NCBI GenBank assembly: GCA_018971385.1
Contig: JAGXAY010000009.1
Span: 1 to 42,067, forward strand
Length of the DNA: 42,067 bases
Direction of reading: 5' to 3'
Origin: Acidobacteriota bacterium
Lineage (GTDB): Bacteria > Actinomycetota > Acidimicrobiia > Acidimicrobiales > RAAP-2
Shown here in pieces: positions 2,689 through 18,410 of the stretch. A program made the translations under genes and the position numbers. The notes under the pieces are model-generated. The model was not told the origin of the DNA. It was given only the letters and a program-made list of their open reading frames with translations, and searched no databases. Every line of letters begins with the position of its first letter. Position 1 is the first letter of the stretch.

Positions 2689-4839
2689 TCAGCGAGTCCG
2701 GTAGATGGTGGTGTTGTAGTCGCTCAGCATGCGCGTCGTCGAGTACTCCGGCGACAGGGTGCGTAGCGAGTCTCGCACCCGCGCCAGCCACGCCGTCGGC
2801 ACACCGGAGAGATCACGGGCGGCGAAGAGGGGCTTCACCTCGTCTTCCAAGATTCGGTACAGCAGGTGGGCGTCCCGGTAGTCCTGAGCGCCGGGGTCGG
2901 ACTCGACGGTACCCGAGATACCCCAACCGTTCTGGGCGTTGAATCCCTCGGCCCACCAACCGTCGAGCACGGAGAGGTTGAGCACTCCGTTCATCGCCGC
3001 CTTCATTCCACTCGTCCCGGAGGCCTCGAGGGGCGGACGGGGCAGGTTGAGCCACACGTCGACGCCGGAGACGAGGGCCGGCGCGATGCGCAGGTCGTAG
3101 TCCTCCAAGAACACCACCCGATCCGAGAGTCCGAAGTCACGAATCACCCCGAAGAGATTCTTCGCGACCGACTTTCCGTGCTCGTCGAGGGGGTGAGCCT
3201 TACCGGCGACGAGGAGTTGCAAGCCGTCGCCCTCACGCACGATGCGGGCCAGGCGCTCGGCGTCGTAGAAAACGAGGTCGAGGCGCTTGTACGTCGCGAG
3301 CCGACGGGCGAAGCCGACGGTGACAACGTCGGGATCGAAGAGGTGTTGGCCGGCCGAGGCGAGGCTGACGTTCTCGCCCCGGGCCAAGCGATCGACCGAG
3401 ACCTTGGAACGAATCATTTCGATGAGGCGTCGGCGCAACTGATTGCGCACCGCCCAGAGGTCGAGGTCCGAGATCTCGTCCAAATGGCTCCAGATGGAGG
3501 GGTCACTGCAGCGACGCTCCCACTCCACTCCACAAAAACGCCCAATCAGGTCCCGCATCGGGGGGGCCATCCAGGTGGGGAGGTGCACGCCGTTCGTCAC
3601 GTAGGAGATGGGGACGTCGGCCGCCTCACGTCCGGGAAAGAGGGGGCGCCACATTTCTCGGGCCACCTCGCCGTGGCGCTCGGAGACGGCGTTCGTCGAT
3701 CGAGAGACCTTGATGGCGAGCGGAGAGAGCCCGAGGGGCTCGTGGGGGTCCTCGCCGTTCACCCGAGCGAGGCGGGCCACTTCGTCGCGACCGAAACCCA
3801 TCTGCTCGACGGCGCGCCCGAGGACGGAGAAGAAGGTCGAAGGGTCGTAGGTCTCGTTACCCGCCGGCACCGGCGTGTGGGTCGTGAAGACGAAACGATC
3901 CCGACCCTGCGCGACGAGGTGGGCGAGGTCTGGTCGTTGCCCTCCGAGCTCTCGGGCGGTGCGCGAGGCCACCTCGAGCGCGGCGAGGGCCGGGTGGCCC
4001 TCGTTCATGTGGTAGAGCGCCGGGCGAATTCCCATCGCCTCGAGGGCCCGCACTCCCCCGACCCCGAGCAAGCCGTACTGGGCCAGACGAATTTCGTGGC
4101 TACCCTCGTAGAGCCGAGCGGTCGTCCATCGCTCGAGGGCGGTGTTCTCCCGTAACTCCGCGTCCAGGAGGTAGAGGACGGTGCGCCCCACGTTGACCCG
4201 CCAGACCTGGGCGAGCAGGTCGTCGTCGCCCACGGGCACGGAGACGACGATGGGTTGATTATGGGGGCCGCGTACCCGAACGAGGGGCATCTGGCCGGTG
4301 TTCATGACCTCCCAGAACTCGTGCTGCCAGCCGGAGACGTCCATGCGCTGGTGGAGATAGCCCCGCCGGTAGAGCAACCCCACCCCCACGGTGTCGAGGC
4401 CCTGGTCGGAGGCCTCCTTCAGGTAGTCCCCAGCGAGTACGCCGAGACCTCCGGAGTACACGGGGAGGGAGGAATGAATGGCGAACTCGGCGCACATGAA
4501 GGCCACGGGTCCACTCGGGAGCACCCGCGAGGTGGGACGGTCCAGTTCGGTGCGCATCCGGGTCGCCACTCGCTCGAGGAGGTCGAGGACCTCCCGATCG
4601 GTGGCGGCGTGTAGCAGGTCTCGCTCGGGCAGGTTGAGGAGGAAACGAACGGGGTTGTGACCGGCCAACTCGAACCGGTGGGCGTCAATCAGGTTGAAGA
4701 GGTCCTCGCCCCCGGGAGTCCAGGACCAGAGGTAGTTGAAGGAGATCCAGGCCAGGTCCTCGAGGGGCTCGGGGAGACGCCGGTGGAGGCGCTCCTCGGC
4801 TCGTCGAAGGTCGCGGGCGCCGTCAAATCGCTGTTCCAT
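2689..4839 (-). CDS. glgP: Alpha-glucan phosphorylase (GT35), copy 1
   Basis: A 716-residue PLP enzyme of the short 'alpha-glucan family phosphorylase' type, which releases glucose-1-phosphate from glycogen or maltodextrin ends. It carries EFAIHSSLPVYSGGLGVLAGD near residue 115-135 in shorter form (FAIHSSLPVYSGGLG), MNEGHPALAALE, FTTHTPVPAGNE, VTNGVHLPTW and the PLP-site block SGTSGMKAAMNG with the lysine near residue 612. It is the last gene of the glucan operon, starting nine bases after the GH57 stop. A TAGGTT box at 4846-4851 ends six bases before the ATG, so it may also be transcribed separately as a leaderless message. It differs clearly from the second phosphorylase at the head of the operon, so the two are not a recent duplication. 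The oligomer-length preference of each is unknown. Confidence 0.93.
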   Translation of the reverse strand: MEQRFDGARDLRRAEERLHRRLPEPLEDLAWISFNYLWSWTPGGEDLFNLIDAHRFELAGHNPVRFLLNLPERDLLHAATDREVLDLLERVATRMRTELDRPTSRVLPSGPVAFMCAEFAIHSSLPVYSGGLGVLAGDYLKEASDQGLDTVGVGLLYRRGYLHQRMDVSGWQHEFWEVMNTGQMPLVRVRGPHNQPIVVSVPVGDDDLLAQVWRVNVGRTVLYLLDAELRENTALERWTTARLYEGSHEIRLAQYGLLGVGGVRALEAMGIRPALYHMNEGHPALAALEVASRTARELGGQRPDLAHLVAQGRDRFVFTTHTPVPAGNETYDPSTFFSVLGRAVEQMGFGRDEVARLARVNGEDPHEPLGLSPLAIKVSRSTNAVSERHGEVAREMWRPLFPGREAADVPISYVTNGVHLPTWMAPPMRDLIGRFCGVEWERRCSDPSIWSHLDEISDLDLWAVRNQLRRRLIEMIRSKVSVDRLARGENVSLASAGQHLFDPDVVTVGFARRLATYKRLDLVFYDAERLARIVREGDGLQLLVAGKAHPLDEHGKSVAKNLFGVIRDFGLSDRVVFLEDYDLRIAPALVSGVDVWLNLPRPPLEASGTSGMKAAMNGVLNLSVLDGWWAEGFNAQNGWGISGTVESDPGAQDYRDAHLLYRILEDEVKPLFAARDLSGVPTAWLARVRDSLRTLSPEYSTTRMLSDYNTTIYRTR

Positions 4840-4845
4840 CCCTAG

Positions 4846-4851
4846 AACCTA
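4846..4851 (-). promoter_or_regulatory. Possible internal -10 box of glgP copy 1
   Basis: TAGGTT read on the minus strand lies six bases ahead of the ATG at 4839. Its first three bases are also the TAG stop codon of the upstream GH57 gene. The spacing is the same as at seven other genes in the window. No -35 box was seen. Confidence 0.35.
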
Positions 4852-6861
4852 CAAGAACTCGTCAACCGTTCCCGTCGCCGGGAACATCTCGGCGAGTCCG
4901 ACCGCTCGCCCGAGGGGGCCGAGAGTCTCACGACGAACGTCGTCCAGTCCGTGGGAGACGAGGGCCATCAGGGCCCGTCGAAGCGCGGTCTCACCCGAGG
5001 GGGAGACGCACCGCGGGGCGCAGGCGAGAGCTTGCAGGAGGGCGTCGTCGTCGCGGGTACCGGGTCGACGGAGCAGTTCGGCGGCGAGAGCGTCGGTTGC
5101 CCCCTCGTAGTCGTGACTGCCCACGCCCCGCAACCACCCGGCGCCCACTCGGGCGACGACGTCGTGACCGAGGTGGGAGAGATCGAACTCCTCCTCACCC
5201 GCGGGGCCGACCACGCGCACACTCATACCCCGACTGGGGTGAGTCGTGACGTCTCCCACGAAAGTGGTCGAGCGCGTCGTACGCTCGTCTCTCACGACGA
5301 CCTCCCGCCCGTTCACCCGATAGGAGTAGTGGCCCCGGCGTCGGTGGGCGTACTCCCGGTGGACGTGGTACTCCGCGAGGGCTCCGGCGGCGACGAGAGC
5401 GGCGTCAGCCCGCTCGGACTCGACCGCCCCCCGCCAGAGTTCCCGGCCGGCCCGGCCGGTCAGGGCGGAGCGCACCCCGGAGAGCTGGTCGATGAACCAC
5501 TCGGTGAGATCCTCTCCGGTCGCCGAGGCCACCATCTCGATGGCCACCTGGGCGTAGCGCAGGACGATACTCGTCTCGATGTCGGCCGGATCAGCGAAGA
5601 ACCAGGCGCAGCTGGTGAAGGCGTAGAGGAGGTGTCGATAGCCCTCGACGAGTTCGAGGACGCGCACCACCTGCTCCTCGGAAAGCCCCTCGGCTCGCTC
5701 GCGGACGAACTCGACCGGAGTCGTCGCCCCCGCGAGTACTCGTCCGTACTCGGTCAGGGTGCCGGGAACGTCCTCGACCAAGTCCTCGAGAGCCCCCGTC
5801 AGACGCTCCACCAGCTCGTCTCGCAGAGAGTCCAGGGCGTGGCGCAGGGGGCGCCGCCAGGCCAGGTCGTATCCGGGGCGCTCCCCGGTGACGCACCCGC
5901 AGTCGGAGTTCCAGCGCTCCACGCCGTGGGCGCAACTCCACGCCGACACCGGCTGCAGTTCCACCTCGTCAACCGGATCGTGACTCTCCAACCACTCTCC
6001 GAGGGAGGTCTCGATGCCGTGACCCTCGCGAAGGCGACGAAGAGCCCAGGCGACCCCGACGTCGCCGAAGCGGTGGTGGTGACCGTAGGTCTCCCCGTCG
6101 GCCACGATGAGGGCCGCCCCGTCGGAGCCCGCCCGCGCGGCCAGGCGATCGGCGAGTCCGTTCCCGTCACTCAGGAGCTCCCCGAAGGCCACGAGTCGGG
6201 AGAGTTCTCCGTCCCCGAAAACCACCCGTAGGGAGCGTCCCGAGGAGAGTACGACTCGGTAGGCCCGGGTGGTGTCGAGACTGGACTGATCGACCTCTCG
6301 CCACTCCTCCCCGGCGCGGCGCACCCGTCGGGCCTGACTCGGCATGAGAACGGTGTAGGTGATCCCGGCGTCGACGAGATCGAGGAGAGTCGCTTCGTCC
6401 ACCGCGGTTTCGGGGAGCCACATGCCCTCGGGGTCCGAACCGTAGCGGTGACGGTAGTCGGCGATACCCCAGGCGATGAGGCGACGTCGATCCTCCGGTC
6501 GAGCCAGGGGCAAAATGGCGTGCACCGCCGGCATCGCCATCACCGGCGAGTCCCCCCGGTGACTTCTCTCGGCCATCTCGTGACGAAGGGACCCCTCGAC
6601 GTCGACGGCGTGGACCTCCATCCAGTGGTGAAGAGTCGGCGCGACGTTGAACGAGCTCATGGTCAGGGGTTCGACCAACTCCAACGATCCCCCCTCCCCC
6701 TCAATGGCGACGGCCACCATGGCCCGGTAACACTCCGCGGCGATGCGCTCGTTCCAGTCGTGGTAGGGAAAGGCCGACCACTCGTTGTGCACAACCCCCA
6801 GCCAGGGATTCTCCCGCGGGGGTTGGTAGAAGTGGAAGTGAAAACCGGCGAGGGGGGTCAT
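4849..6861 (-). CDS. Glycoside hydrolase family 57-like protein with DUF3536 region
   Basis: A 670-residue protein. The N-terminal half has the hallmark blocks of GH57 alpha-glucan enzymes: HFYQPPRENPW at about residues 9-19 (region 1), SSFNVAPTL near 68, GMWLPETAVDE near 145 with the candidate nucleophile glutamate, and ADGETYGHH near 255 with the candidate acid/base aspartate. The C-terminal half (about 390-660) matches what is called DUF3536. There is no signal peptide, so it should act in the cytoplasm. It overlaps the MalQ-GlgB stop codon by four bases (ATGA) and precedes glgP copy 1 by nine bases. This embeds it in alpha-glucan metabolism, and an amylase, debranching or glucanotransferase activity is a reasonable inference. 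The exact reaction is not established by the sequence. Confidence 0.85.
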   Translation of the reverse strand: MTPLAGFHFHFYQPPRENPWLGVVHNEWSAFPYHDWNERIAAECYRAMVAVAIEGEGGSLELVEPLTMSSFNVAPTLHHWMEVHAVDVEGSLRHEMAERSHRGDSPVMAMPAVHAILPLARPEDRRRLIAWGIADYRHRYGSDPEGMWLPETAVDEATLLDLVDAGITYTVLMPSQARRVRRAGEEWREVDQSSLDTTRAYRVVLSSGRSLRVVFGDGELSRLVAFGELLSDGNGLADRLAARAGSDGAALIVADGETYGHHHRFGDVGVAWALRRLREGHGIETSLGEWLESHDPVDEVELQPVSAWSCAHGVERWNSDCGCVTGERPGYDLAWRRPLRHALDSLRDELVERLTGALEDLVEDVPGTLTEYGRVLAGATTPVEFVRERAEGLSEEQVVRVLELVEGYRHLLYAFTSCAWFFADPADIETSIVLRYAQVAIEMVASATGEDLTEWFIDQLSGVRSALTGRAGRELWRGAVESERADAALVAAGALAEYHVHREYAHRRRGHYSYRVNGREVVVRDERTTRSTTFVGDVTTHPSRGMSVRVVGPAGEEEFDLSHLGHDVVARVGAGWLRGVGSHDYEGATDALAAELLRRPGTRDDDALLQALACAPRCVSPSGETALRRALMALVSHGLDDVRRETLGPLGRAVGLAEMFPATGTVDEFL

Positions 6862-9800
6862 GACACCTTTCGGGTGAGGACCATCACGCCGAGCGGGGGG
6901 AGTCGGAGTCGGACCTCAGAGCCCAGGTTAGGGGCCTCGGCCGAGGCCGGGTAACCAGAACCACCGTAGATCGCCTCGTCGGAGTGGGCGAGAACCACCA
7001 TCTCGCCCTCGCCGGGGAAGTGGATGACGTAGTTCTCCCGGGGCACCGGCGTGAAGTTCGCCACCACGTAGGTCGCCCGTTCGCCCACCCCGCGCCGCCA
7101 GGCGAGGATGGACTGGTCGACGTCGTCGCAGGACACCCATCCGAAGTCCATCTCACTGGCGTCGTCGCCCCACCAACTCCGCTCCCCGCGGTAGATCTCG
7201 TTGAGGGCCTGGACCCAGCGCCTCACCCCCTCGTGACGGGGATCTGCGAGCAGGTGCCAGTCGAGGGAGCGCTCGTGATCCCACTCCCGAATTTGGGCGA
7301 ACTCCGAACCCATGAAGAGGAGTTTCTTACCGGGCAACCCGTACTGGTAGCCGTAGAGAAGGCGCAGTGAGGCGAATCGTTGCCAGTCGTCACCGGCCAT
7401 TTTGGTGAAGAGGGACCCCTTGCCGTGCACCATCTCGTCGTGGGAGAGAGCCATGACAAATCGTTCGTGGTGGGCGTAGAGGGCCCGAAAGGTCACCTCG
7501 TGATGGTGGTAGCGCCGGTGGATGGGGTCACGTCCGAGGTAGGTGAGGGTGTCGTGCATCCAACCCATGTCCCACTTGAAGTCAAAGCCGAGTCCCCCTT
7601 CTCGACTGGGGGCGGTCACTCCGGCCCACGCGGTCGACTCCTCGGCGATCGTGACGACTCCGGGGTAAGCCCCGTGGAGATGGTCGTTCACGTAGCGCAG
7701 GAGATCGATGGCGTCGAGGTCTTCTCGACCCCCTTCGCGGTTGGGCACCCACTCCCCCGGACGGCGGCTGTAGTCGAGGTAGAGCATCGAGGCGACGGCG
7801 TCGACACGCAGGCCATCGGCGTGGAACTGTTCAATCCAGTAACTCGCGCTCGAGGTGAGAAAGCTCCGGACCTCGTTCCGGGAGTAGTTAAAGGTCCAAC
7901 TCAACCAGTCGGGGTGCACCCGCTGACGCTCGTCGGCGTGCTCGTAGAGGTGAGTACCGTCGAATACCGCGAGCGCGTGGGCGTCGGAAGGAAAGTGGGA
8001 CGGCACCCAGTCGAGAATCACCCCGACGCCCACTCCGTGGAGGGCGTCAACGAGGGCTCGTAGGTCGTCCGGAGTGCCAAAGCGTGACGAGGGGGCGAAG
8101 TAGCCCACGCTCTGGTAGCCCCACGAACCGTAGAAGGGGTGCTCCATCACCGGCATGAGTTCCACGTGAGTGAATCCCATGTCGGCGACGTACCCCGGCA
8201 ACTGTTCAGCCATCTCCAAATAGGTGAGCGGGCGGTTCCCTTCTTCGGGGACTCGACGCCACGATCCGACGTGCACCTCGTAGATCGACATGGGGCGATG
8301 GTGGGACGCCGAACGTCTCGCCATCCACGCCTCGTCACCCCACACGTAGCGGGACTGGAAGATGCGCGAACCGGTGCGGTCGGGAATCTCGAACTGCGTC
8401 CCCACCGGATCGGCCTTCTCGAACTCCGCTCCGCCGAGGCGGGAGCGCACGTGGTACTTGTAGACCTGGCCCTCGAGAGCTCCCGGGATGAAGCCCTCGA
8501 AGACGCCCGAGGAGTCCCGGGGGGTCAACGGGTGGGCACCGGGGTCCCAGCCGTTGAAGTCACCGACCACCGAGACTCGTTCGGCGTTCGGGGCCCACAC
8601 CGCGAAGTAGCAGCCCTCCACCCCCTCGACCACGCTCGGGTGGGCTCCCAAGTGATCGAAGATACGAAAATGGCGGCCCTCGTTGAAGAGGTAGACGTCG
8701 TCGGGGCTCCAGCGGGAGTAGGGCACGACCGACGGCTCCACCCCGCGCGAGAGCGCGAGGGGGGCGAGTCGCTTCGAGAGAGTCTCGGAGTGGCGCATCT
8801 CCTCGAGCGACTGCCCGCAGAGTTGGGACCAGTTCGAGCGCTCACTCGAGGTACCGGGCAGATTCACCGCTCGCGTCTCACCGAGGAGGTCCTCCACTTG
8901 GACCATAACGAGACCCGCGTCCGACTCACCGAGACGACGATGCAGAAGGTGGAAGGCCTCCTCGGCGCCGGCGTCAGCGTCGAGGTGAAGACTGCGCCGG
9001 AGTCGGCCAACGTCGCGCTGGCGCTGCTCACGGGCCTCGGCGGCACTCTCGGGGCTGAGGATCTCCAGCTCGGCCCGTTCGTCGATATCCACGCCCTCCC
9101 ACCATCCCCAGAAGGTCGGGGTGTCGTGAGTGGCGAAGGAGGCGACACTCCCCGCGGGCACCGGGGCTAGTTCATGCTCCTCGAGGGCGTACTGGGCCAC
9201 GTACATTCCCCGGAGTCCCTCGTGGGCCATGGCGTCGCGCAGGGCGGGATCGACGGTGCCGAGGTCCTCTCCCACTACGTCGACGCCGAAGCGCTGGGCC
9301 TCAATGGCCACGACGGCCATCAGTTCGTCGAGGGGCATCGAGACGTAGGTGCCGTCGTGCCCCGTCCCGCCGTCGGGCACCCAGAAGAGGCGCTGAAGAC
9401 CCATGACGTGGTCGAGGCGCACGACGCCGGCGACGCGCATGTGGCACCGGAGCGCTTCGCGAAATTGACGGTGGGCGCTCTCGCGCACCCGTTCGGGGTG
9501 GGGGGGTGGCGCCCCCCAACTCTGACCGTCCCGGGTCACGGGATCGGGCGGAGTTCCGATGGAGAAACCGGCCACCCACTCGTCGGGGTAGCGCCAGACG
9601 TCGTAACCGTCGGGGTGCACCCCCACGGGAATGTCCAACTGGAGGGTTTGTCCCCGCTGGGCGAGGCGAGCCGAGAGTTGGTGCATCTGCTGATCGATGA
9701 TCCACTGGGCGAAGAGGTGGTAACGCACTCGAGTGGGGTCGACGTCGTTCCAACGAAGCAGTCCCGATCGAGCGGTCGTCGGCCACGTGCGAAAGTTACG

Positions 9801-10796
9801 TCCCATGGTCTCTCCGGCCGCGCGGAATCGGGCGAAGTCGTTCACCTCGGGATGCTCCATCACGTAGGAGCGCAGACCCTTCTCGTAGAGGGCCATGAAC
9901 TCACTCTGGGTCGCCGCCCAGGCCTGAATGACGTTGCGCTTCGCGTTAAAGGCCGCGGCCGCATCCACCCGCTGACCGTCTCGCCAGGCGCGGCGGGCCT
10001 CGGGTCCGTACGTGTGACGCATCAAGTGTTGGGCGGCCGGCGAGTCCTCGAGAAACTCCACCTGATCGAGGGCGATGTAGCGGTCGTTCCAGAATCGCCG
10101 AGACACCGGCCGATAGGGCGAGGGCTCGAAGTCGTGGGGACCGAAGGAGGACAGGAGGGGCAGGGTCGCCACCACGCTCGCCCCCCGGGGGGCGACCAGG
10201 GCGGCGAAGGCGTCGAGGTCGGCGACGTCCCCCGATCCCCAGGAACGTTCCGAGTGAAGGGAGAAGACCGGCGCCTGGACCGAGATGGCGCGCCAGTCGT
10301 CGGCGAAGCGGTTGGGTCGGGCCCGCAGTGGACGAACAATCAGTGTCGACCACGCGGAACGCTTTCCGGTCATCACGCAGAGGCGGTGGTATCCGACGCG
10401 CAGAGCCGGTAGGCGTAGGCCGAACCGGCGCTCCTCGCCGGGCAGTGGATCGAGCTCGCTACCGGCGACTTGCCAGGAGACGTCGCCCCCGAACTCGAAC
10501 TCCACCCGGCACTGATAGGTCGGAGCGCGCCGAACGAGGCGAAGGCCCACCGTGTGGTCGACCCCCTCGTCGAGAACATAGACGGGCTCCACCATGCGGT
10601 CGGTGACGGACTGGCGCCACTCGAGCAGGGCGCGCGGCGCGTCCTCCACGCTTCGCGGCGCCCCGGGGTCCCCCATCGCGCGCAGTACCGCGAGCAGCGT
10701 GTCGGGCGCCACCGACACGGTGCGGGAGAGTCCGTCCACGAAGTGGGTCGAGACGCCGCGCAGTCGAGCGAGCTCGTGAAGGGCGTCGAGACTCAC
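6858..10796 (-). CDS. malQ-glgB: Bifunctional 4-alpha-glucanotransferase / 1,4-alpha-glucan branching enzyme fusion
   Basis: One uninterrupted frame of 1312 codons holds two complete enzymes. Residues 1 to about 690 are a long-type MalQ (GH77): an N-terminal helical domain ([13 protein letters not shown]), then RLDHVMGL near 460 (nucleophile Asp), GEDLGTV near 510 (acid/base Glu) and ATHDTPT near 558. Residues about 691-1312 are a GlgB (GH13) without the extra N1 domain: the start block [19 protein letters not shown], a CBM48 segment ([20 protein letters not shown]), DGLRVDAV near 997, IAEEST near 1050 and [13 protein letters not shown] near 1118. There is virtually no linker. Start GTG 10796 overlaps the preceding phosphorylase stop as GTGA, and its own stop overlaps the next gene as ATGA. 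Both halves keep their catalytic residues, so one chain should both disproportionate and branch alpha-glucans. Confidence 0.93.
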   Translation of the reverse strand: [1312 protein letters not shown]

Positions 10797-13327
10797 GAGG
10801 CCCACACGATCAGTCCGGCCTCCACGTCGCCGTCGGTGTGCACGAGGGAGGGAACGATTCGAAGCGCCCACTCGTTCTCGAGGTCGGTCGCGTCGAGGTG
10901 AACGCGGTAACGAGCGTGGACGTCGCGACGATCGAAGAGGAAAGCGTCGAGGGGCCGACACCCCTCCGCCTCTCGCCACACTTGAACCGACAGATCGGCC
11001 GGCTCGAGGGCACCGAGGTGTACCCCCACCTCGAGATCGAGGCCCGTGGACACGGGAACCTCCTTCTCCACTCGAAGCGCGAGTTCCGACCAGTGCGCGC
11101 GGAGGCGACGCTGGTGAGCCGTCCGATCGCGAGCAGACTGGGCGCCTCCGGCGAGGAGTTGCTCCGACTTCACGAGACCGGGCAGGTAGAAGCGCTCGGT
11201 GTACTCCCGCGTCATGCGCAGGGAGTCCCACGTCGGAGCGAGGGTCGACATGGACTGCTTCACTGAGGCGAGCCAGCGGCGGGGCACCCCGTCGGCGTCG
11301 CGTTCGTAGAAGGCGGGCACGATCTCCTCTTCGAGCACGGTGTAGAGCGAGTCGGCGTCGAAGTCGTCCTGGGCCGACTCGTCCTCCCACCGCTCCTTGT
11401 TTCCAATCGTGAAACCGATGGGGGGCGCGCTCGGGTCAGCGTCGGCGAGAGCCTCGTCCCACCACCCGTCGATGGTCGAGAGATTGAGCACCCCGTTCAT
11501 ACCCGCCTTCATACCCCCCACCCCGCAGGCCTCGAGCGGACGTCGGGGAGTATTCAACCAGAGGTCCACCCCCTGGGTCATCGCGCGGTCCATGGTGGTG
11601 TCGAAGTCCACCATGAAGACCACGCGGTCACTGACGCCGTAGCGGGAGGCGAAGTCAATCATGTCGGCGAGCAGACGCTTTCCCCCCTCGTCGCTGGAGT
11701 GGGCCTTCCCGGCGAAGACGATCTGCACCGGACGTGCGGGATTCTTCAAAATGGCGGCGAGACGCTCGGGGTCACGCAGTAGGAGGGTGGGCCGCTTGTA
11801 GGCGACGAAGCGCCCGACGAATCCGATGGTGAGAAAGTCCTCGTGCAACACCGAAACGGCCGCCACCCGCTCGGTGGGTGCGTGGCGGCGAGCGAGGTCC
11901 TTACGGGCGCGGCGACGGGCGAACTCTACGAGGTCGGCTCGGGCCTTGTTCTTCACCTGCCAGAGGGCGGCGTCGTTCGCCCGCGTGAGCTTGGACCACA
12001 TCACCGGGTCCCCGGGAGTCGTCTGCCACTGGGCCCCGATTGCGGAGGTCAGTAACTCGGCGAAGGGTCCCGTGACCCAGGACTCGAGGTGCACTCCGTT
12101 CGTGACGTGAGTGATCGGCACTTCGACCTCCGGCGTGCGGGGCCAGAGCATCGACCACTGGCGCCGGGTGACCTCGCCGTGGAGTCGAGAGACCCCGTTA
12201 CGGTGGCCGGCTAGTCGAAGGGCGAAGACGGTGGGGCAAAAGCTGTCCCCCTCCCACTCGGGGGTGACCCGGCCGAGGGACACCAACTCCTCGGTGGAGA
12301 TGGCTAGCTGGGCCGCGTAGGGAGCGAGATACTCCCGAGCCAGGTGGGGGGCGAAGTAGTCGTGACCAGCGGCGACCGGAGTGTGCGTGGTGAAGACCAG
12401 ACTCGGGCGCACCGCCACCCGGGCCTCCTCGAAACTGAGGCCCTCGCGGGCCATGACCCGACGCAGGTGTTCGAGCAGAGCGAAGACCGAGTGCCCTTCG
12501 TTGAGGTGAACGGTGGTCGGAATCAGGTCGAGCGCCGCCAGGGCGCGCATTCCTCCGACGCCGAGTATGAGCTCCTGGGCGAGGCGCACGTCGGGACGCG
12601 AGTCGTAGAGCTGGGTCGTGAGGAGACGGTCCGCCTCCGAGTTGTTCTCGAGGGCCGCGTCGAGGAGGAAGAGTCGCCGGCGTCCCACCTGGGCCTCGTA
12701 GACCGCTACTTGGAGGTCCCGTCCGGGCAGGGACACCGCCACCTGGACCTCGCGCCCCTGGGAGTCGCGGGCTCGCGAGATGGGCATCTGTTCCGGAGAC
12801 ATCATGTCCCAGGCCTCGTGCTGGCGTCCCTCGCGGTCGAGCCACTGGTGAGAAGATCCCCGGTAGAGCAGTCCCACGCCCACGAGGGGAATACCGAGGG
12901 CGCTCGCCGCCTTCATCTGCTCGGCCGCCACCGTCCCGAGACCACCGGCGAAGATCGGCAGAGAGTCGGTGAGGGAGAACTCCGCCGCGAAGAAGGCCAC
13001 CAAAAGATCACGCTGGGATCGGTGTGTTCCGGAGAACCAGGTCTTCGCCCCGTGGGCCATATACGTGCGAAAGTTCCGCACCACCTCGTCGGCGAGATCT
13101 CGAATCTCCTCGTCGCGAAGCAGCTCCTCCACCCGGCTTCGCCCGAGACCGAGGAGTAACTGCTCCGGCCACTCGAGCGCGCCGGGACTGGCCGTAGGGT
13201 CGAGGCGCGCGAAGAGACGCCGGGCGTCAATCTTCCAGGTCCAGCGTAGGTTCCTCGCGACCTGGAGTAACTCGTCGTAGGACGCGCGGTGACGGCGAGT
13301 GCTCGGGGAACTCAGAGCCTCACTCAC
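10793..13327 (-). CDS. glgP: Alpha-glucan phosphorylase (GT35), copy 2
   Basis: An 844-residue phosphorylase and first gene of the glucan operon. It contains the N-terminal helical segment found in this group (NLRWTWKIDARRLFARLDP), FAAEFSLTDSLPIFAGGLG, LNEGHSVFALLE, FTTHTPVAAGHD, VTNGVHLESW and the PLP-site block CGVGGMKAGMNG with the lysine near 607. After about residue 700 it has a C-terminal extension absent from copy 1, ending in a beta-rich segment (DLSVQVWREAEG ... VHLDATDL) that may bind glucan or help assembly. GTG 13327 is chosen because GGAGGAGGG lies just upstream. The open frame extends another 27 codons to 13408, but without a ribosome site and with low-complexity residues. Its end overlaps the MalQ-GlgB start by four bases. 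It should make glucose-1-phosphate from glucans. Confidence 0.92.
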   Translation of the reverse strand: MSEALSSPSTRRHRASYDELLQVARNLRWTWKIDARRLFARLDPTASPGALEWPEQLLLGLGRSRVEELLRDEEIRDLADEVVRNFRTYMAHGAKTWFSGTHRSQRDLLVAFFAAEFSLTDSLPIFAGGLGTVAAEQMKAASALGIPLVGVGLLYRGSSHQWLDREGRQHEAWDMMSPEQMPISRARDSQGREVQVAVSLPGRDLQVAVYEAQVGRRRLFLLDAALENNSEADRLLTTQLYDSRPDVRLAQELILGVGGMRALAALDLIPTTVHLNEGHSVFALLEHLRRVMAREGLSFEEARVAVRPSLVFTTHTPVAAGHDYFAPHLAREYLAPYAAQLAISTEELVSLGRVTPEWEGDSFCPTVFALRLAGHRNGVSRLHGEVTRRQWSMLWPRTPEVEVPITHVTNGVHLESWVTGPFAELLTSAIGAQWQTTPGDPVMWSKLTRANDAALWQVKNKARADLVEFARRRARKDLARRHAPTERVAAVSVLHEDFLTIGFVGRFVAYKRPTLLLRDPERLAAILKNPARPVQIVFAGKAHSSDEGGKRLLADMIDFASRYGVSDRVVFMVDFDTTMDRAMTQGVDLWLNTPRRPLEACGVGGMKAGMNGVLNLSTIDGWWDEALADADPSAPPIGFTIGNKERWEDESAQDDFDADSLYTVLEEEIVPAFYERDADGVPRRWLASVKQSMSTLAPTWDSLRMTREYTERFYLPGLVKSEQLLAGGAQSARDRTAHQRRLRAHWSELALRVEKEVPVSTGLDLEVGVHLGALEPADLSVQVWREAEGCRPLDAFLFDRRDVHARYRVHLDATDLENEWALRIVPSLVHTDGDVEAGLIVWAS

Positions 13328-13330
13328 GTA

Positions 13331-13339
13331 ACCCTCCTC
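13331..13339 (-). promoter_or_regulatory. Strong ribosome-binding site of the glucan operon
   Basis: GGAGGAGGG on the minus strand sits four to five bases before GTG 13327. It is the strongest Shine-Dalgarno sequence in the window and fixes the start of phosphorylase copy 2. Confidence 0.8.
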
Positions 13340-13382
13340 CAGCCGACCCGGGGTCACCGAATGGGCTGTTCCATGACTAGCA

Positions 13383-13432
13383 CACTCGCCGACACGTCGT
13401 CTCCTCACAACCCCTCGGCGGGTCGGCGAGTG
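13383..13432. repeat. Inverted repeat between glucan operon and mazG-like gene
   Basis: CACTCGCCGAC at 13383-13393 is repeated in perfect inverted form (GTCGGCGAGTG) at 13422-13432, separated by 28 bases. It lies in the 140-bp divergent intergenic region, upstream of the strong ribosome site of the glucan operon and about 35 bases before the mazG-like start. The long spacer suggests two sites for a dimeric regulator or a looped structure rather than a terminator. No T-run follows on either strand. Confidence 0.6.
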
Positions 13433-13467: not shown

Positions 13468-13788
13468 GTGAGCGACATCGAGGATCTCATGGACGAGGCG
13501 CGCCAGTTCGCCGAGGTGCGTCACTGGACCGAGTTCCATACGCCGAAGAACTTGGCGATGGCCCTCGCCGGAGAGGCCGGAGAATTGGTCGCCGAGTTTC
13601 GTTGGCTGACTCCCGACGAGGCTCAGCTCGACGCGCTGTCCGTCGAACACCTCGGGCTCATTCGCGACGAGATGGCGGATGTCTTCATCTTTCTCCTGCG
13701 CTTGGCCGACGTGCTGGAGGTGGATCTCGCGGCCGCGGTGCGGAGCAAACTAGCGAGGAACGAGAGCCGTTTCCCCCGACCCGATTAA
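13468..13788 (+). CDS. MazG-like nucleotide pyrophosphohydrolase
   Basis: A 106-residue all-alpha protein of the MazG/dCTPase (RS21-C6-like) group, which hydrolyses NTPs or dNTPs to the monophosphate and pyrophosphate. The helix carrying the first metal ligands reads LAGEAGELVAEF near residues 33-44, with the paired acidic motif RDEMADVFIF near 67-76, matching the EXXE...EXXD magnesium site. Start GTG 13468 has GGAGG upstream. It is divergent from the glucan operon and convergent with the GH18 gene, and the two stop codons overlap within TTAA. A house-cleaning role against non-canonical nucleotides is the family expectation; the substrate is not predictable here. Confidence 0.88.
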   Translation: MSDIEDLMDEARQFAEVRHWTEFHTPKNLAMALAGEAGELVAEFRWLTPDEAQLDALSVEHLGLIRDEMADVFIFLLRLADVLEVDLAAAVRSKLARNESRFPRPD

Positions 13789-15353
13789 CCCAGGGCCGGT
13801 TCGCCGGGCCACGTGAAGAGCGCCGTCCAGGGTGATCCCGTCGGATTGGTTGCCGCCGCGGCTGGCGACTGCGCCACGTTGTACCACTTGGACTGATACG
13901 GCAGTCCGTTGAAGAGGACTCTCTGACCCGCCACGTACGTCCGCCGCGGCGACCACGCGGGATAGGTCCCGGTGGGCAACGTGGTTGTCGTGGGTGGGTG
14001 ACTACCGGGCAGGACCGGCCCGATGAGTTGCCACGGAGTTTGCGACGGGTACTGGACGACCGTCGCCGGATCCTGTCCCTGCGAGAACCACTTCGCCTGA
14101 TAGATCTCCCCGTTGCGCACCACCTTGTAGGTCGGTGGGTACGGAACTGAGGCGGACCACTGCGGGTAGGGCCCCGGGGCGTTCGAGGGAGCTACGACAG
14201 TTCCCGACGTGGTCGCCGGAGCCCCGACGCCGTCGCGAGCGCTAAAGGCGCCCGAAAAGAGACGGGAGTAGCCGAGCGCGGACTCGGTCGCGCCGGAGCA
14301 GGTCGTCGAGAGCACGCCAATCTCAGCGAAGGCGGAGCCGCACTGGTCGTCTCGATTGAGTGACCACATCGAGATCCGACCCCAGTGATGAAGTGACGCC
14401 GCCGAGACCACTCGCGTCGCCCCCGCGATCGACAGATTCTCCCCGGGAGTGTCGTTCTCACCAATCATGACCGTCACGCCAAATCTCGCGTTCAAATCTC
14501 CCGACACTCCGTAGCGTTGATAGAGCTGGTTCACTTGGGCCTGAGCGGCCGTCGCCACGGAGACGACCGCCCCCGACATCGACTGCTCCGGTTGCCCAAA
14601 GTCCATGGCCATCACGTCGACTCCGGCCGGCACCACGCCGGCGGCGAGAACGCTCTCCACAGTCTGCAGCGCGGAGTAGGAGAGGCCACCGGGGCCCGCC
14701 GGAATGGTGAGCCACACACCCAAGTGACGAGACCCTCCGCTCGCCTTCACGACCGCGGCGATGGCCCGAGCTCGTCGGTGAAGAGACGCGACGTTATTGA
14801 GTGCGGACCCTTCGACGTCAAAATCCAGAATCGACGGGTGGTAATGGCTAACGACCGCCTCGTACGCTCGCGTCAGCGCGGCCGTCGTGGGGCACGCTTG
14901 CGCGAGATCGAGGTGATCTCGCCCACCGAAGGAGATGATGATGTCGCCTCCAATCGACCGGTACTGAGCAATTCGACTGGAGAGATTGAGGGTGTTGTCG
15001 GCCTGGACGAGGGTGTACGCCGCCCCCCACGAGGGTGTGCAGCCGCCTCCCGACACGACGAATCCAAGCACCGTTTGGCGGGCGACGTTTTGCGACGGAT
15101 CTTGAAACTGGTACGTCGGGGTCAAGGTGGTGTCCACGTAGGGGGCGAACCAGGTACCAGTGCTCGTGGTCGACGCGGCGGCCCGGGTCGAGAACTGGGC
15201 TCGCCACCACCAACCAGCGCCCGCGAGGAGAGCGACGCCCACGAGGAGCGCCACGGTCACTCTCAGGGGCGAGTACTCCGGACGGGGCTCGTCGTCGCGG
15301 CCGTCGTCGTCCGTCCACTCCGACGTATCGGCATAACGAGATTGATCGGACAT
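13785..15353 (-). CDS. Membrane-anchored GH18 glycosidase with two chitin-binding-like repeats
   Basis: A 522-residue protein. An acidic cytoplasmic tail of about 28 residues is followed by one hydrophobic segment (about 32-51, VALLVGVALLAGAGWWW), so it is anchored with the bulk outside. Residues about 70-370 are a GH18-like barrel: GGDIIISFGGRDH, then SILDFDVEGSAL near 175, which keeps the D-x-D-x-E core with the catalytic glutamate but has serine where the first aspartate of DxxDxDxE usually stands. Two C-terminal repeats, around residues 395-440 and 465-512, have the CBM5/12 pattern (YPQWS...NGEIYQAKWF and YPAWS...NGLPYQSKWY). GGAGG precedes ATG 15353. It is divergent from the GT2-EAL synthase across a shared control region, which suggests it trims or binds that enzyme's polymer, perhaps one built on GlcNAc. 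The polymer itself is inference. Confidence 0.85.
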   Translation of the reverse strand: MSDQSRYADTSEWTDDDGRDDEPRPEYSPLRVTVALLVGVALLAGAGWWWRAQFSTRAAASTTSTGTWFAPYVDTTLTPTYQFQDPSQNVARQTVLGFVVSGGGCTPSWGAAYTLVQADNTLNLSSRIAQYRSIGGDIIISFGGRDHLDLAQACPTTAALTRAYEAVVSHYHPSILDFDVEGSALNNVASLHRRARAIAAVVKASGGSRHLGVWLTIPAGPGGLSYSALQTVESVLAAGVVPAGVDVMAMDFGQPEQSMSGAVVSVATAAQAQVNQLYQRYGVSGDLNARFGVTVMIGENDTPGENLSIAGATRVVSAASLHHWGRISMWSLNRDDQCGSAFAEIGVLSTTCSGATESALGYSRLFSGAFSARDGVGAPATTSGTVVAPSNAPGPYPQWSASVPYPPTYKVVRNGEIYQAKWFSQGQDPATVVQYPSQTPWQLIGPVLPGSHPPTTTTLPTGTYPAWSPRRTYVAGQRVLFNGLPYQSKWYNVAQSPAAAATNPTGSPWTALFTWPGEPALG

Positions 15354-15433: not shown

Positions 15434-15478
15434 GTCATTTTCTGGTTGAAACTACGCGGAGTCCCTTTTGTCGGCCCC

Positions 15479-15484
15479 GAGGAG
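15479..15484 (+). promoter_or_regulatory. Ribosome-binding site deciding the GT2-EAL start
   Basis: GAGGAG lies seven bases before GTG 15492. The alternative TTG at 15468 has no such sequence in front of it. Confidence 0.75.
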
Positions 15485-15491
15485 ATCAACC

Positions 15492-18410
15492 GTGACGCCC
15501 GAACTCAGCACGACGACATCACCCGCACCGGCCACTTCCTACGCGGATCGACCGGTACAGACGCTGGCCCCCATCATCACCGATCGACGCGTCATGATGG
15601 GCCGGGTCGCGGTAGTCGCCACTCTCGTGGTGTGGATGACGTACGTGGGTTCGTGGCTCGTCGGTCAATTCTTTGATGGTCAGGCGCACTCCATTAGGTC
15701 GAAGGTGGAGGCGGTGGTCTATCTGCTCGTCGTCACGCTACTCACGGCCTCGTCCCTGGCGTACCTCATGACGAGGCTCGGCTACATGTACCGCACTCGC
15801 CAGCACCAACGGGTCCCGCGGGCCGTGATTGATGACTACTTCGCCCACCACCTCCCCACTCTCACCGTCATCGTGCCCTCCTACGAAGAAGAGCCGCGGG
15901 TCATTCGCAATACGTTGCTCTCCGCGGCCCTCCAGGAGTATCCCTTTATCAGGGTGGTCCTCCTGATTGACAACAACCCCCACCCGAAGAAATCCTCCGA
16001 GCGCCGTCTACTGCGGGCGGCTCGCGACTCGGCTCGCGAGATTGAGGAGCTACTGAAGACGCCGGCTACGACCTTTCGACGAGCCCTCGAGGAGTTCGAG
16101 AGTTCGCCACGCGCCCACCAACCCGACGAGCGAACGATGCGGGATCTCGCCGCACTCTACGAATCCGCCGCCACCACCGTCCTCGGGTGGCGGGACCCGA
16201 GCCTCCACGCCGATCCCGCCGAACGTTTCTTCGATCAGGGTGTGCTCGAGGGACTCGCGGAGGATCTCATCACCACCTCCCTCGCCCTCACCCGGGCCAG
16301 CGACGAGGGAGTCGTCCTACCGGCCGAACGTCTTCACCAGTTCTACCGTCGGCTGGCCTGGACTTTCCGAGCGGACGTGACGTCGTTCGAACGGAAGCTC
16401 TACGCCAATCTGTCTCACGAGCCCAACAAGGCGATGAACCTCAACTCCTACATCGGCCTGATGGGCCACTCGTACCACGACGTGGAGACCGTGGCCGGTC
16501 GCGTCCTTCTTCCCGCCGGATCCGGTCGACGGAGCCTCGAGATTCCGAACACTGACTACGTCGTGACCCTGGACGCTGACTCGGTCATCCTGCCCGAGTA
16601 CTGCCTTCGTTTGGTCTATCTCATGGAGCAAACACAGAACGCCGACGTGGCGGTGGCCCAGAGTCCCTACAGTGCCTTCCCCGGCTCCTCCTCTCCCCTC
16701 GAGCGCATCGCGGGGGCGACCACCGATATTCAGCACATCGCCCACCAGGGCATGACGTACTACAACGCCACCTTCTGGGTGGGGGCGAACGCCGTACTGC
16801 GTAAACGGGCGCTCGACGACGTCGTCGAGACGACCTACGTCGGGGACTGGCCCGTTCATCGCTACATTTCGGACCGGACGGTCATCGAAGACACGGAGTC
16901 CACGCTGGACTTGGCCCGTCGGGGCTGGCGACTCGTGAACTACCCGGAACACCTGGCGTACTCGGCGACGCCCCCCGACTTCGGATCACTCGCGATTCAG
17001 CGCCGACGCTGGGCTAACGGAGGCCTGATCATCGCTCCAAAGCTCCGTCAGATGGCCCGGGAGAAGAGCGAACGGGGTAAGGAGACCAGGTTCTCGGAAC
17101 AACTCATTCGCATGAACTACTTGGCGTCCATCGCCTGGAGCACCTTCGCGCTCGTGCTGCTCCTCGTCTACCCCTTTAGTGCGTCCCTTCTCCAGCCCAT
17201 CCTCATACTCCTACCCCTGCCCTACTTCGCCGCGATGGCGTCCGACCTGCGCTCACTCGGGTACCGCAGGCGAGATCTCGCGAGTACGTATGGGTTCAAT
17301 CTGCTACTCATCCCCATCAATTTGGCGGGAGTCGGAACCTCACTCATTCAGGCAATCCTGTCGGACAAGAGCGCCTTCGGGCGAACCCCCAAAGTCCGGG
17401 AACGTACCGTTCCCGCCCTGAGTTTCATCGTGGCGCCCTACCTCATCGTCGCCGTCGCGGCCTACACCACCGTTCACGACATTCACCTGCGTCACTGGGT
17501 AAACGCCTTTTTCGCGGGAGTGAACATGACGTTGCTGAGCATCGCCATCGTGCGCTTCATCGGACTGCGTCACAGTGCCGTCGACGTCGTTCGTCATCTT
17601 CAGTTGCGTCTCTACAAGCCGCAGCGAGCCACCCCCACCCCCATCGCGACGCCGACGGAGCGGGCCAACCAGGACTGGGCCACCATCTTGCACGTGGGGT
17701 CGTCGGGGAGCTCCTCCTCACCCCGGGGACAGTTATCGCTCGACGGCCTTCACCGGCGAACCGACACCGAGGTCATCTTTCAGTCCATCTGGGACTTGAG
17801 AGAACGCCACATCGTGGGGTACGAAGCCCTCAGTCGATTCTTGGATGGCGGGGCTCCCCACTTCCGCATCGCCGAGGCGTCAGCTGAAGGGCGCGGCGTG
17901 GAACTCGAAACCCTCCTCGCTCGTTACGCCGTCGAGAGTTCTCACGAACTACCCCCCGCCGGCTACCTCGCCCTCAACGCGTCACCCGCCTTCGCCCTGT
18001 CGGGGGCTCTCCACTCACTACTACGTCCCCTGCAGCGCCCGGTTGTCCTCGAGATCAACGCCCGCGATATCTCGGACCACTCCTTCTCCCCCCGTTTGCC
18101 CCAGGGGGTGAGCTGGGCCCTCACCGACATCGACTTAAGTTCCGACTCTCGAACTCTCATTGCGAGATACACCCCGCGTCAAGTGAAGATAGATATGCGT
18201 TGGGTACGACTCGGGGCTACGGAGGAGGGACGCGGCGAGCTCTCAGCACTCCTTCAGTTGTGCCGCGTCCACGACATCGACATCGTGGTGCAACACGTCG
18301 AAGCGACTCGGGATCTGCAACTTCTCGAAAGTATGGGCATCGCTTTCGGACAGGGCTACCTCCTCGGTCGCCCTCGATCACTTCAGCCCCAGCCGCCCCT
18401 CGTTCCCTAG
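15492..18410 (+). CDS. GT2 membrane polysaccharide synthase fused to a degenerate EAL domain
   Basis: A 972-residue protein. Two membrane helices (about 39-61 and 73-95) precede a processive GT2 domain with IVPSYEEE near 128, LDADS near 359 (DxD), a VIEDTE block near 466 and QRRRW near 503. The last is the Q(Q/R)xxRW motif of cellulose, chitin and hyaluronan synthases. More membrane helices follow at about 540-690. From about 759 to 966 is an EAL domain: YEALSRF near 777, LNAS, EINA, VKIDM and GQGYLLGRP are kept. However, the usual DDFG reads TDID near 877, and the AEGVE motif reads VQHVE near 933, so a metal-binding Asp and the catalytic Glu are replaced by Thr and Gln. Such domains typically bind c-di-GMP without cutting it. 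I infer a synthase gated by c-di-GMP, with EAL doing the job of PilZ in BcsA. Its stop overlaps the convergent DUF393 stop within CTAG. Confidence 0.88.
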   Translation: MTPELSTTTSPAPATSYADRPVQTLAPIITDRRVMMGRVAVVATLVVWMTYVGSWLVGQFFDGQAHSIRSKVEAVVYLLVVTLLTASSLAYLMTRLGYMYRTRQHQRVPRAVIDDYFAHHLPTLTVIVPSYEEEPRVIRNTLLSAALQEYPFIRVVLLIDNNPHPKKSSERRLLRAARDSAREIEELLKTPATTFRRALEEFESSPRAHQPDERTMRDLAALYESAATTVLGWRDPSLHADPAERFFDQGVLEGLAEDLITTSLALTRASDEGVVLPAERLHQFYRRLAWTFRADVTSFERKLYANLSHEPNKAMNLNSYIGLMGHSYHDVETVAGRVLLPAGSGRRSLEIPNTDYVVTLDADSVILPEYCLRLVYLMEQTQNADVAVAQSPYSAFPGSSSPLERIAGATTDIQHIAHQGMTYYNATFWVGANAVLRKRALDDVVETTYVGDWPVHRYISDRTVIEDTESTLDLARRGWRLVNYPEHLAYSATPPDFGSLAIQRRRWANGGLIIAPKLRQMAREKSERGKETRFSEQLIRMNYLASIAWSTFALVLLLVYPFSASLLQPILILLPLPYFAAMASDLRSLGYRRRDLASTYGFNLLLIPINLAGVGTSLIQAILSDKSAFGRTPKVRERTVPALSFIVAPYLIVAVAAYTTVHDIHLRHWVNAFFAGVNMTLLSIAIVRFIGLRHSAVDVVRHLQLRLYKPQRATPTPIATPTERANQDWATILHVGSSGSSSSPRGQLSLDGLHRRTDTEVIFQSIWDLRERHIVGYEALSRFLDGGAPHFRIAEASAEGRGVELETLLARYAVESSHELPPAGYLALNASPAFALSGALHSLLRPLQRPVVLEINARDISDHSFSPRLPQGVSWALTDIDLSSDSRTLIARYTPRQVKIDMRWVRLGATEEGRGELSALLQLCRVHDIDIVVQHVEATRDLQLLESMGIAFGQGYLLGRPRSLQPQPPLVP

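Follow-up and report, generated by a model that had tools for sequence, protein, structure and literature searches.

We analyzed a stretch of 42,067 nucleotides (positions 1 to 42,067 of contig JAGXAY010000009.1, assembly GCA_018971385.1, from the Acidimicrobiales lineage RAAP-2; the whole stretch is called the window below) that carries a gene in which the 4-alpha-glucanotransferase MalQ and the branching enzyme GlgB are joined in one protein. The genome of origin (G000) has 2.1 Mb in 221 contigs and is 96% complete. On the minus strand, positions 10796 to 6858 form a single uninterrupted frame of 1,312 amino acids followed by a stop, with the coordinates and length proposed in a first-pass annotation made from the sequence alone, which had not given the strand. 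The plus-strand frame across 6858 to 10796 was read and rejected because it contains stops. A longer minus-strand frame of 1,510 amino acids was also rejected, since it extends into the upstream phosphorylase gene; the GTG at 10796 was preferred as the start because relatives start there. No second match to the fusion protein was found elsewhere in G000 at E ≤ 0.001. The gene and its parts are as follows.

6858..10796, minus strand: malQ-glgB fused gene, 1,312 codons plus stop, GTG start (Pfam and NCBIfam profiles; start position as in relatives)
10329..10589, minus strand: MalQ_N beta-sandwich domain, residues 70-156 (PF21226, 32.7 bits, cut-off 24.1)
8826..10271, minus strand: GH77 catalytic domain, residues 176-657, with D462, E510, and D558 (PF02446, 295.5 bits; alignment to the E. 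coli MalQ chain 4s3p)
8700..8771, minus strand: linker, residues 676-699 (set by the profile ends; variable in the alignment of relatives, with a ratio of nonsynonymous to synonymous substitution rates [dN/dS] above that of both halves)
6858..8699, minus strand: GlgB half, residues 700-1312 plus stop, with D999, E1052, and D1120 (PRK05402, 874.7 bits), without a separate GlgB_N domain
8406..8651, minus strand: CBM48 of the GlgB half, residues 716-797 (PF02922, 74.8 bits)
6870..7139, minus strand: Alpha-amylase_C, residues 1220-1309, the all-beta domain that ends the GlgB half (PF02806, 47.3 bits)

Both halves matched enzyme profiles near full length and above the cut-offs, as the first-pass annotation had expected of two complete enzymes in an unbroken frame. 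The GH77 domain covered positions 2-456 of the 465 in PF02446, and the NCBIfam model for malQ (TIGR00217) gave 258 bits over residues 129-675 (cut-off 206). In the C-terminal half, the NCBIfam model PRK05402 matched residues 700-1308 (cut-off 741), and PRK12313 (841 versus 577 bits) and TIGR01515 (769 versus 464 bits) were likewise exceeded. The Pfam Alpha-amylase domain was also found in this half, with its best stretch at residues 869-941, while GlgB_N (PF22019, Pfam) reached only 20.2 bits in the fusion protein, under its cut-off of 27 and overlapping CBM48. By sequence, the N-terminal half was closest to the solved 4-alpha-glucanotransferase chains 5b68 and 4s3p, and the C-terminal half to the solved GlgB chains 8zqa and 6joy. 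Residues 448, 496, and 548 of 4s3p aligned with D462, E510, and D558, and D999, E1052, and D1120 fell in stretches aligned to the solved GlgB chains. We take these six residues to be the catalytic acids of the two halves; all were invariant in 10 of 10 aligned fusions, in line with the earlier statement that catalytic residues are kept on both sides. As judged from profiles and alignments, the window protein thus carries two complete enzyme units with their catalytic residues retained.

The distribution of the fusion was surveyed first in its genus group of 37 genomes, G000 included. The whole fusion lies on one contig in seven of them (G000, G005, G016, G023, G024, G026, and G028); contig ends interrupt the gene in G002 and G030, yet one frame crosses the junction, and in G009 the MalQ part alone runs up to a contig end. 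With G328 and G703 (record JAKAPH010000025.1), two additions in the genus or close to it, the in-frame junction was present in 11 genomes, the ten besides G000 having fusions ca. 62 to 66% identical to the window protein. It was also in frame in G276, G312, and G271, each of which represents one other family of the same order. The wider surveys were samples searched with strict thresholds (1e-60 to 1e-200). The order sample (298 genomes) held at least five fusions (G000, G328, G276, G312, and G271). In the phylum sample (396 genomes), a match at E ≤ 1e-200 spanned both halves in G000 alone, and none of nine long-frame regions read from eight other genomes was fused. Fusions whose halves were reported apart were detected by reading long frames: of 20 regions, two were fused (G271 and G1238) and 18 were not. 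Among the best 80 of 592 matched loci of a contig scan, four were fused, namely, loci L067 and L101 (see below) and two actinobacterial records, "uncultured actinobacterium isolate AM-2014-D4_bin-419" and "Actinomycetes bacterium isolate YF1.bin62."

In principle, two genes could have been merged here through an overlooked stop or frameshift, given that the genome is fragmented into 221 contigs and that separate adjoining malQ and glgB genes are common elsewhere. However, the same in-frame junction recurs in ten further genomes in or near the genus and in three other families. The junction region that the first-pass annotation had singled out for checking (8700 to 8760) is free of stops, and its proviso that relatives might all have two separate genes did not apply, the full-length relatives it had asked for being found among these same genomes. 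We therefore regard an artefact as extremely improbable, and the sequences indicate that the fusion is genuine and not an assembly slip.

Outside the Actinobacteria, fused genes were found in Gemmatimonadetes metagenome-assembled genomes (MAGs), i.e., G700 (L101), G1266, and G1238, which make up 3 of a 198-genome sample of the class of G700 (G700 included), and in a deltaproteobacterial MAG (L067). Where scanned (L101, L237, and L067), they resemble the window protein in having MalQ, CBM48, and GH13 without GlgB_N above the cut-off, and the Gemmatimonadetes group shares with the window operon a GH57 gene after the fusion; however, their MalQ halves are just 32 to 36% identical to that of the window. 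The gap between the MalQ and GlgB profiles is 24 residues in the window protein, 29 to 36 in the genus relatives and G276, 25 to 31 in G312, G271, and L067, and 47 to 64 in the Gemmatimonadetes group. The first-pass description of "almost no linker" was therefore slightly off.

A different architecture came from the order of an Accumulibacter genome (399 genomes), where we hand-picked, among the matches listed, 20 genomes that were small and had weaker GlgB scores. Five of the 20 had one frame of 1,433 to 1,447 amino acids holding both halves. The motif GCCGTCTGAA, which we take to be the Neisseria uptake sequence, occurred in 20, 21, 3, 14, and 26 copies per 17.6 to 20 kb around these five fusions (ca. 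0.04 expected) and was absent from five other fusion loci counted, and we took the five genomes as Neisseriaceae. The fusion scanned among these (L204) retains GlgB_N between the halves (PF22019, 88.4 bits, residues 710-803), which the window protein does not, and the spacer is 129 positions in all five versus 24 to 36 in the window type. Section 3.3 of a 2024 review (PMC11046441) reports that malQ and glgB are joined in Neisseria sicca, the glucanotransferase being N-terminal and the branching enzyme C-terminal. The enzymes and their order are those of the window protein, but the N. sicca fusion sits among glgP, glgX, and amylosucrase genes according to that review, whereas the window fusion lies between DUF3417 phosphorylase genes. 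Hence, contrary to the first-pass annotation, which knew of no description of this exact fusion, one of the same kind had been reported in N. sicca (PMC11046441), and five Neisseria-like genes are located here.

Two other named fusion families share only the MalQ part with the window protein, bifunctional GlgX/MalQ (NF011082, 297 of a 2,511-bit cut-off), in which the partner is GlgX, and NF011077 (named malto-oligosyltrehalose synthase; 377 of 2,148 bits), in which it is a trehalose synthase. The literature searched, with subscription journals mostly outside its coverage, yielded no description of an actinobacterial malQ-glgB fusion or its operon and no assay of any malQ-glgB fusion. This kind of fusion is thus already known, and the actinobacterial variant with its operon, for which we found no description, is the new part.

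We then compared trees of the two halves. The MalQ tree used 65 of 71 collected rows, after contig-end pieces and duplicates were dropped. Grouping the 20 fused rows into one clade was rejected (approximately unbiased [AU] test, p-AU 1.05e-59), and with it a single origin that includes the Neisseria-like genes. The 15 non-Neisseria rows as one clade were not rejected (p-AU 0.128), so that a common origin of the actinobacterial, Gemmatimonadetes, and deltaproteobacterial fusions is compatible with the MalQ tree but not demonstrated by it. In the GlgB tree (72 of 197 rows, 52 of them unfused and hand-chosen), the fusion label requires five changes, at least four of them forced by starred branches. 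There, the half from G312 has as its sister an unfused GlgB from G181, which bears the same genus code (support, 100); this could reflect splitting, swapping, or an independent fusion event. G312 and G271 are long branches whose placement in the trees is unsure. The rejected MalQ clade, the changes in the GlgB tree, the GlgB_N domain of the Neisseria-like protein scanned, and the 129-position spacer of all five together indicate at least two origins of the malQ-glgB fusion, with the Neisseria-like type arising separately.

As for how the genes were joined, among the loci fetched there were 28 distinct ones (duplicates removed by hand) in which malQ is a gene of its own that precedes glgB in the same orientation, with at most 600 bases between profile ends, and five with the reverse order. 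The 28 have the enzymes, order, and strand of the window fusion, yet encode two polypeptides. A candidate malQ-glgBXCAP operon is given for Pasteurellaceae in PMC1805755. In G041, the open frames of adjoining malQ and glgB overlap, offset by one frame. Together with the frequent adjacency, this suggests that losing the stop or shifting the frame between the genes would be an easy route, and the fusion most likely arose in this way from neighboring malQ and glgB genes.

Purifying selection acts on each of the halves. Across three pairs of close relatives, dN/dS was 0.15 to 0.22 for the MalQ half and 0.10 to 0.19 for the GlgB half, and in the wider pair of the window and G024 ca. 0.34 and ca. 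0.27, respectively. These low values suggest that both enzymes are probably in use. For the linker (23 to 33 codons compared), dN/dS was 0.55, 0.85, and 0.23 in the close pairs and 0.87 in the wider pair, with high dS in the last two. Ribosomes might also restart inside the linker and produce additional free GlgB, and in all nine sequences examined in-frame ATG, GTG, or TTG codons are indeed located no more than 60 codons from the GlgB start. However, neither the positions of these codons nor the bases preceding them are conserved among the nine, which leaves internal initiation unsupported, and we consider a second product improbable.

The fused gene is flanked by three genes of glucan metabolism on the same strand.

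10793..13408, minus strand: upstream alpha-glucan phosphorylase of the DUF3417 type (TIGR02094, 694 bits), with a predicted start codon and a 4-base overlap with the fusion
4849..6861, minus strand: downstream GH57 protein with DUF3536 (Pfam), overlapping the fusion by 4 bases
2689..4839, minus strand: second alpha-glucan phosphorylase of the DUF3417 type (TIGR02094, 706 bits), after the GH57 gene

This order (phosphorylase, MalQ-GlgB, GH57/DUF3536, and phosphorylase) is kept in the genus loci as far as the contigs reach and also occurs in G276, a member of another family. The GH57 neighbor matches the GH57 family and DUF3536 but any characterized GH57 enzyme only weakly and is thus uninformative on the direction of flux. 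A GH57/DUF3536-like gene also lies 3' of the fusion in G271 and in Gemmatimonadetes MAGs (L220, L101, L202, and L237), and so the association of the fusion with GH57 extends past the genus.

Taken together, these features make it quite likely that MalQ-GlgB is a truly bifunctional enzyme that serves alpha-glucan metabolism inside the cell. Its GH77 half would pass alpha-1,4 segments from one linear chain to another, thereby altering chain lengths, and the GH13 half would cut segments and re-attach them via alpha-1,6 bonds. With the short linker, both halves could act on the same glucan in a fixed ratio; disproportionation would turn short stubs into chains long enough for branching, and branching would create new non-reducing ends for MalQ and both phosphorylases of the operon. 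A coupling of disproportionation to branching by the fusion is plausible under this model. Both activities, their residence on one chain in the cell, the coupling, and the direction of flux are inferences. The fusion might instead merely set equal amounts of the two enzymes with no catalytic coupling, a possibility against which we lean; the genes are already translationally close, with 4-base overlaps at both ends of the fusion, and the linker drifts in alignment and dN/dS. Against it, the fused state is maintained in 11 genomes (62 to 66% identity to the window protein), even though overlapping genes could match expression as well.

Some observations weigh against the reading as a bifunctional enzyme. 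Of the 37 genomes, 24 had no strong match and three (G007, G008, and G027) had separate malQ and glgB genes, with MalQ ca. 34% identical, so that the fusion is dispensable in the genus. In addition, an AlphaFold model of residues 130-1312 built from ten sequences was too poor for use (mean predicted local distance difference test score [pLDDT], 51.4; predicted template-modeling score [pTM], 0.36). The three genomes with separate genes (L032 to L036) have an unfused malQ, then glgB and further GH13 genes, and since their MalQ is far from the fused clade, the genus contains two different malQ-glgB systems.

The direction of flux was approached through the genes of glycogen synthesis. GT5 (PF08323) had no match in G000, and the best GlgC match reached 88.9 of 424.9 bits, below the cut-off and fitting mannose-1-phosphate guanylyltransferase better; neither component of the classical GlgC-GlgA-GlgB pathway was thus recovered, which in a genome 96% complete does not prove absence. 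Among 11 genus genomes with the fusion or a piece of it at a contig end, three had no PF08323 match, and eight had 20 to 28 bits on a frame of 408 or 418 amino acids, counted as over the cut-off. The corresponding 405-amino-acid GT4 protein of G000 (contig C55, locus L243, 1557-2774, minus strand) scored 360 bits with MshA, a mycothiol enzyme, versus 92 bits with glgA_Coryne, the former being below the MshA cut-off of 462. From their length, the 408- and 418-residue frames would be this same MshA-like protein. Therefore, the PF08323 search gave a convincing GlgA glycogen synthase in none of the 11 genus genomes, and glgA_Coryne reached its cut-off in none of 20 genomes. Elsewhere, unlike in the genus of the window, G312 (L201) and G271 (L220) have a GT5 gene shortly upstream of the fusion (172 and 159 bits), and the Neisseria-like G997 has one elsewhere in its genome (242 bits).

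The lack of a convincing GlgA in the genus hints at either phosphorylase-driven synthesis or pure salvage. In the latter case, the operon would degrade imported or stored glucan via the phosphorylases and MalQ, the branching half being minor or serving in remodeling. The two phosphorylases and the GH57 protein around the fusion fit this, as do the negative synthase searches. However, the strong purifying selection on the branching half is hard to square with pure breakdown, and the related fusions of G312 and G271 lie close to a GT5 gene. We consider salvage a serious contender, though not the favored one; it concerns the direction of flux and overlaps with the bifunctional enzyme that we prefer. 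More speculative, and in our view unlikely, is that the genus builds branched alpha-glucan without glycogen synthase, with the phosphorylases running from glucose-1-phosphate, the fusion providing primers and branches, and the tether replacing a processive synthase.

The joint use of MalQ and branching activities is of interest in starch processing. A natural tether between a chain-shuffling and a chain-branching enzyme, evolved at least twice and in two architectures, offers a direct test of what joining them does to glucan structure. How fusion carriers make or use branched glucan, given that no convincing glycogen synthase was found in them, is a testable question.

Two further genes lie beyond the glucan operon. 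Just upstream of it, a minus-strand frame of 522 amino acids (13785-15353) has a C-terminal CBM5/12 carbohydrate-binding module (28.8 bits, cut-off 26.2) as its sole Pfam match. On the plus strand, 15468-18410 encodes a protein of 980 amino acids in which Pfam found a cellulose-synthase-like GT2 domain (130.6 bits) joined to a C-terminal EAL domain (74 bits). By eye, the EAL domain retains some but not all of the usual motifs, and it may sense cyclic di-GMP rather than cleave it.

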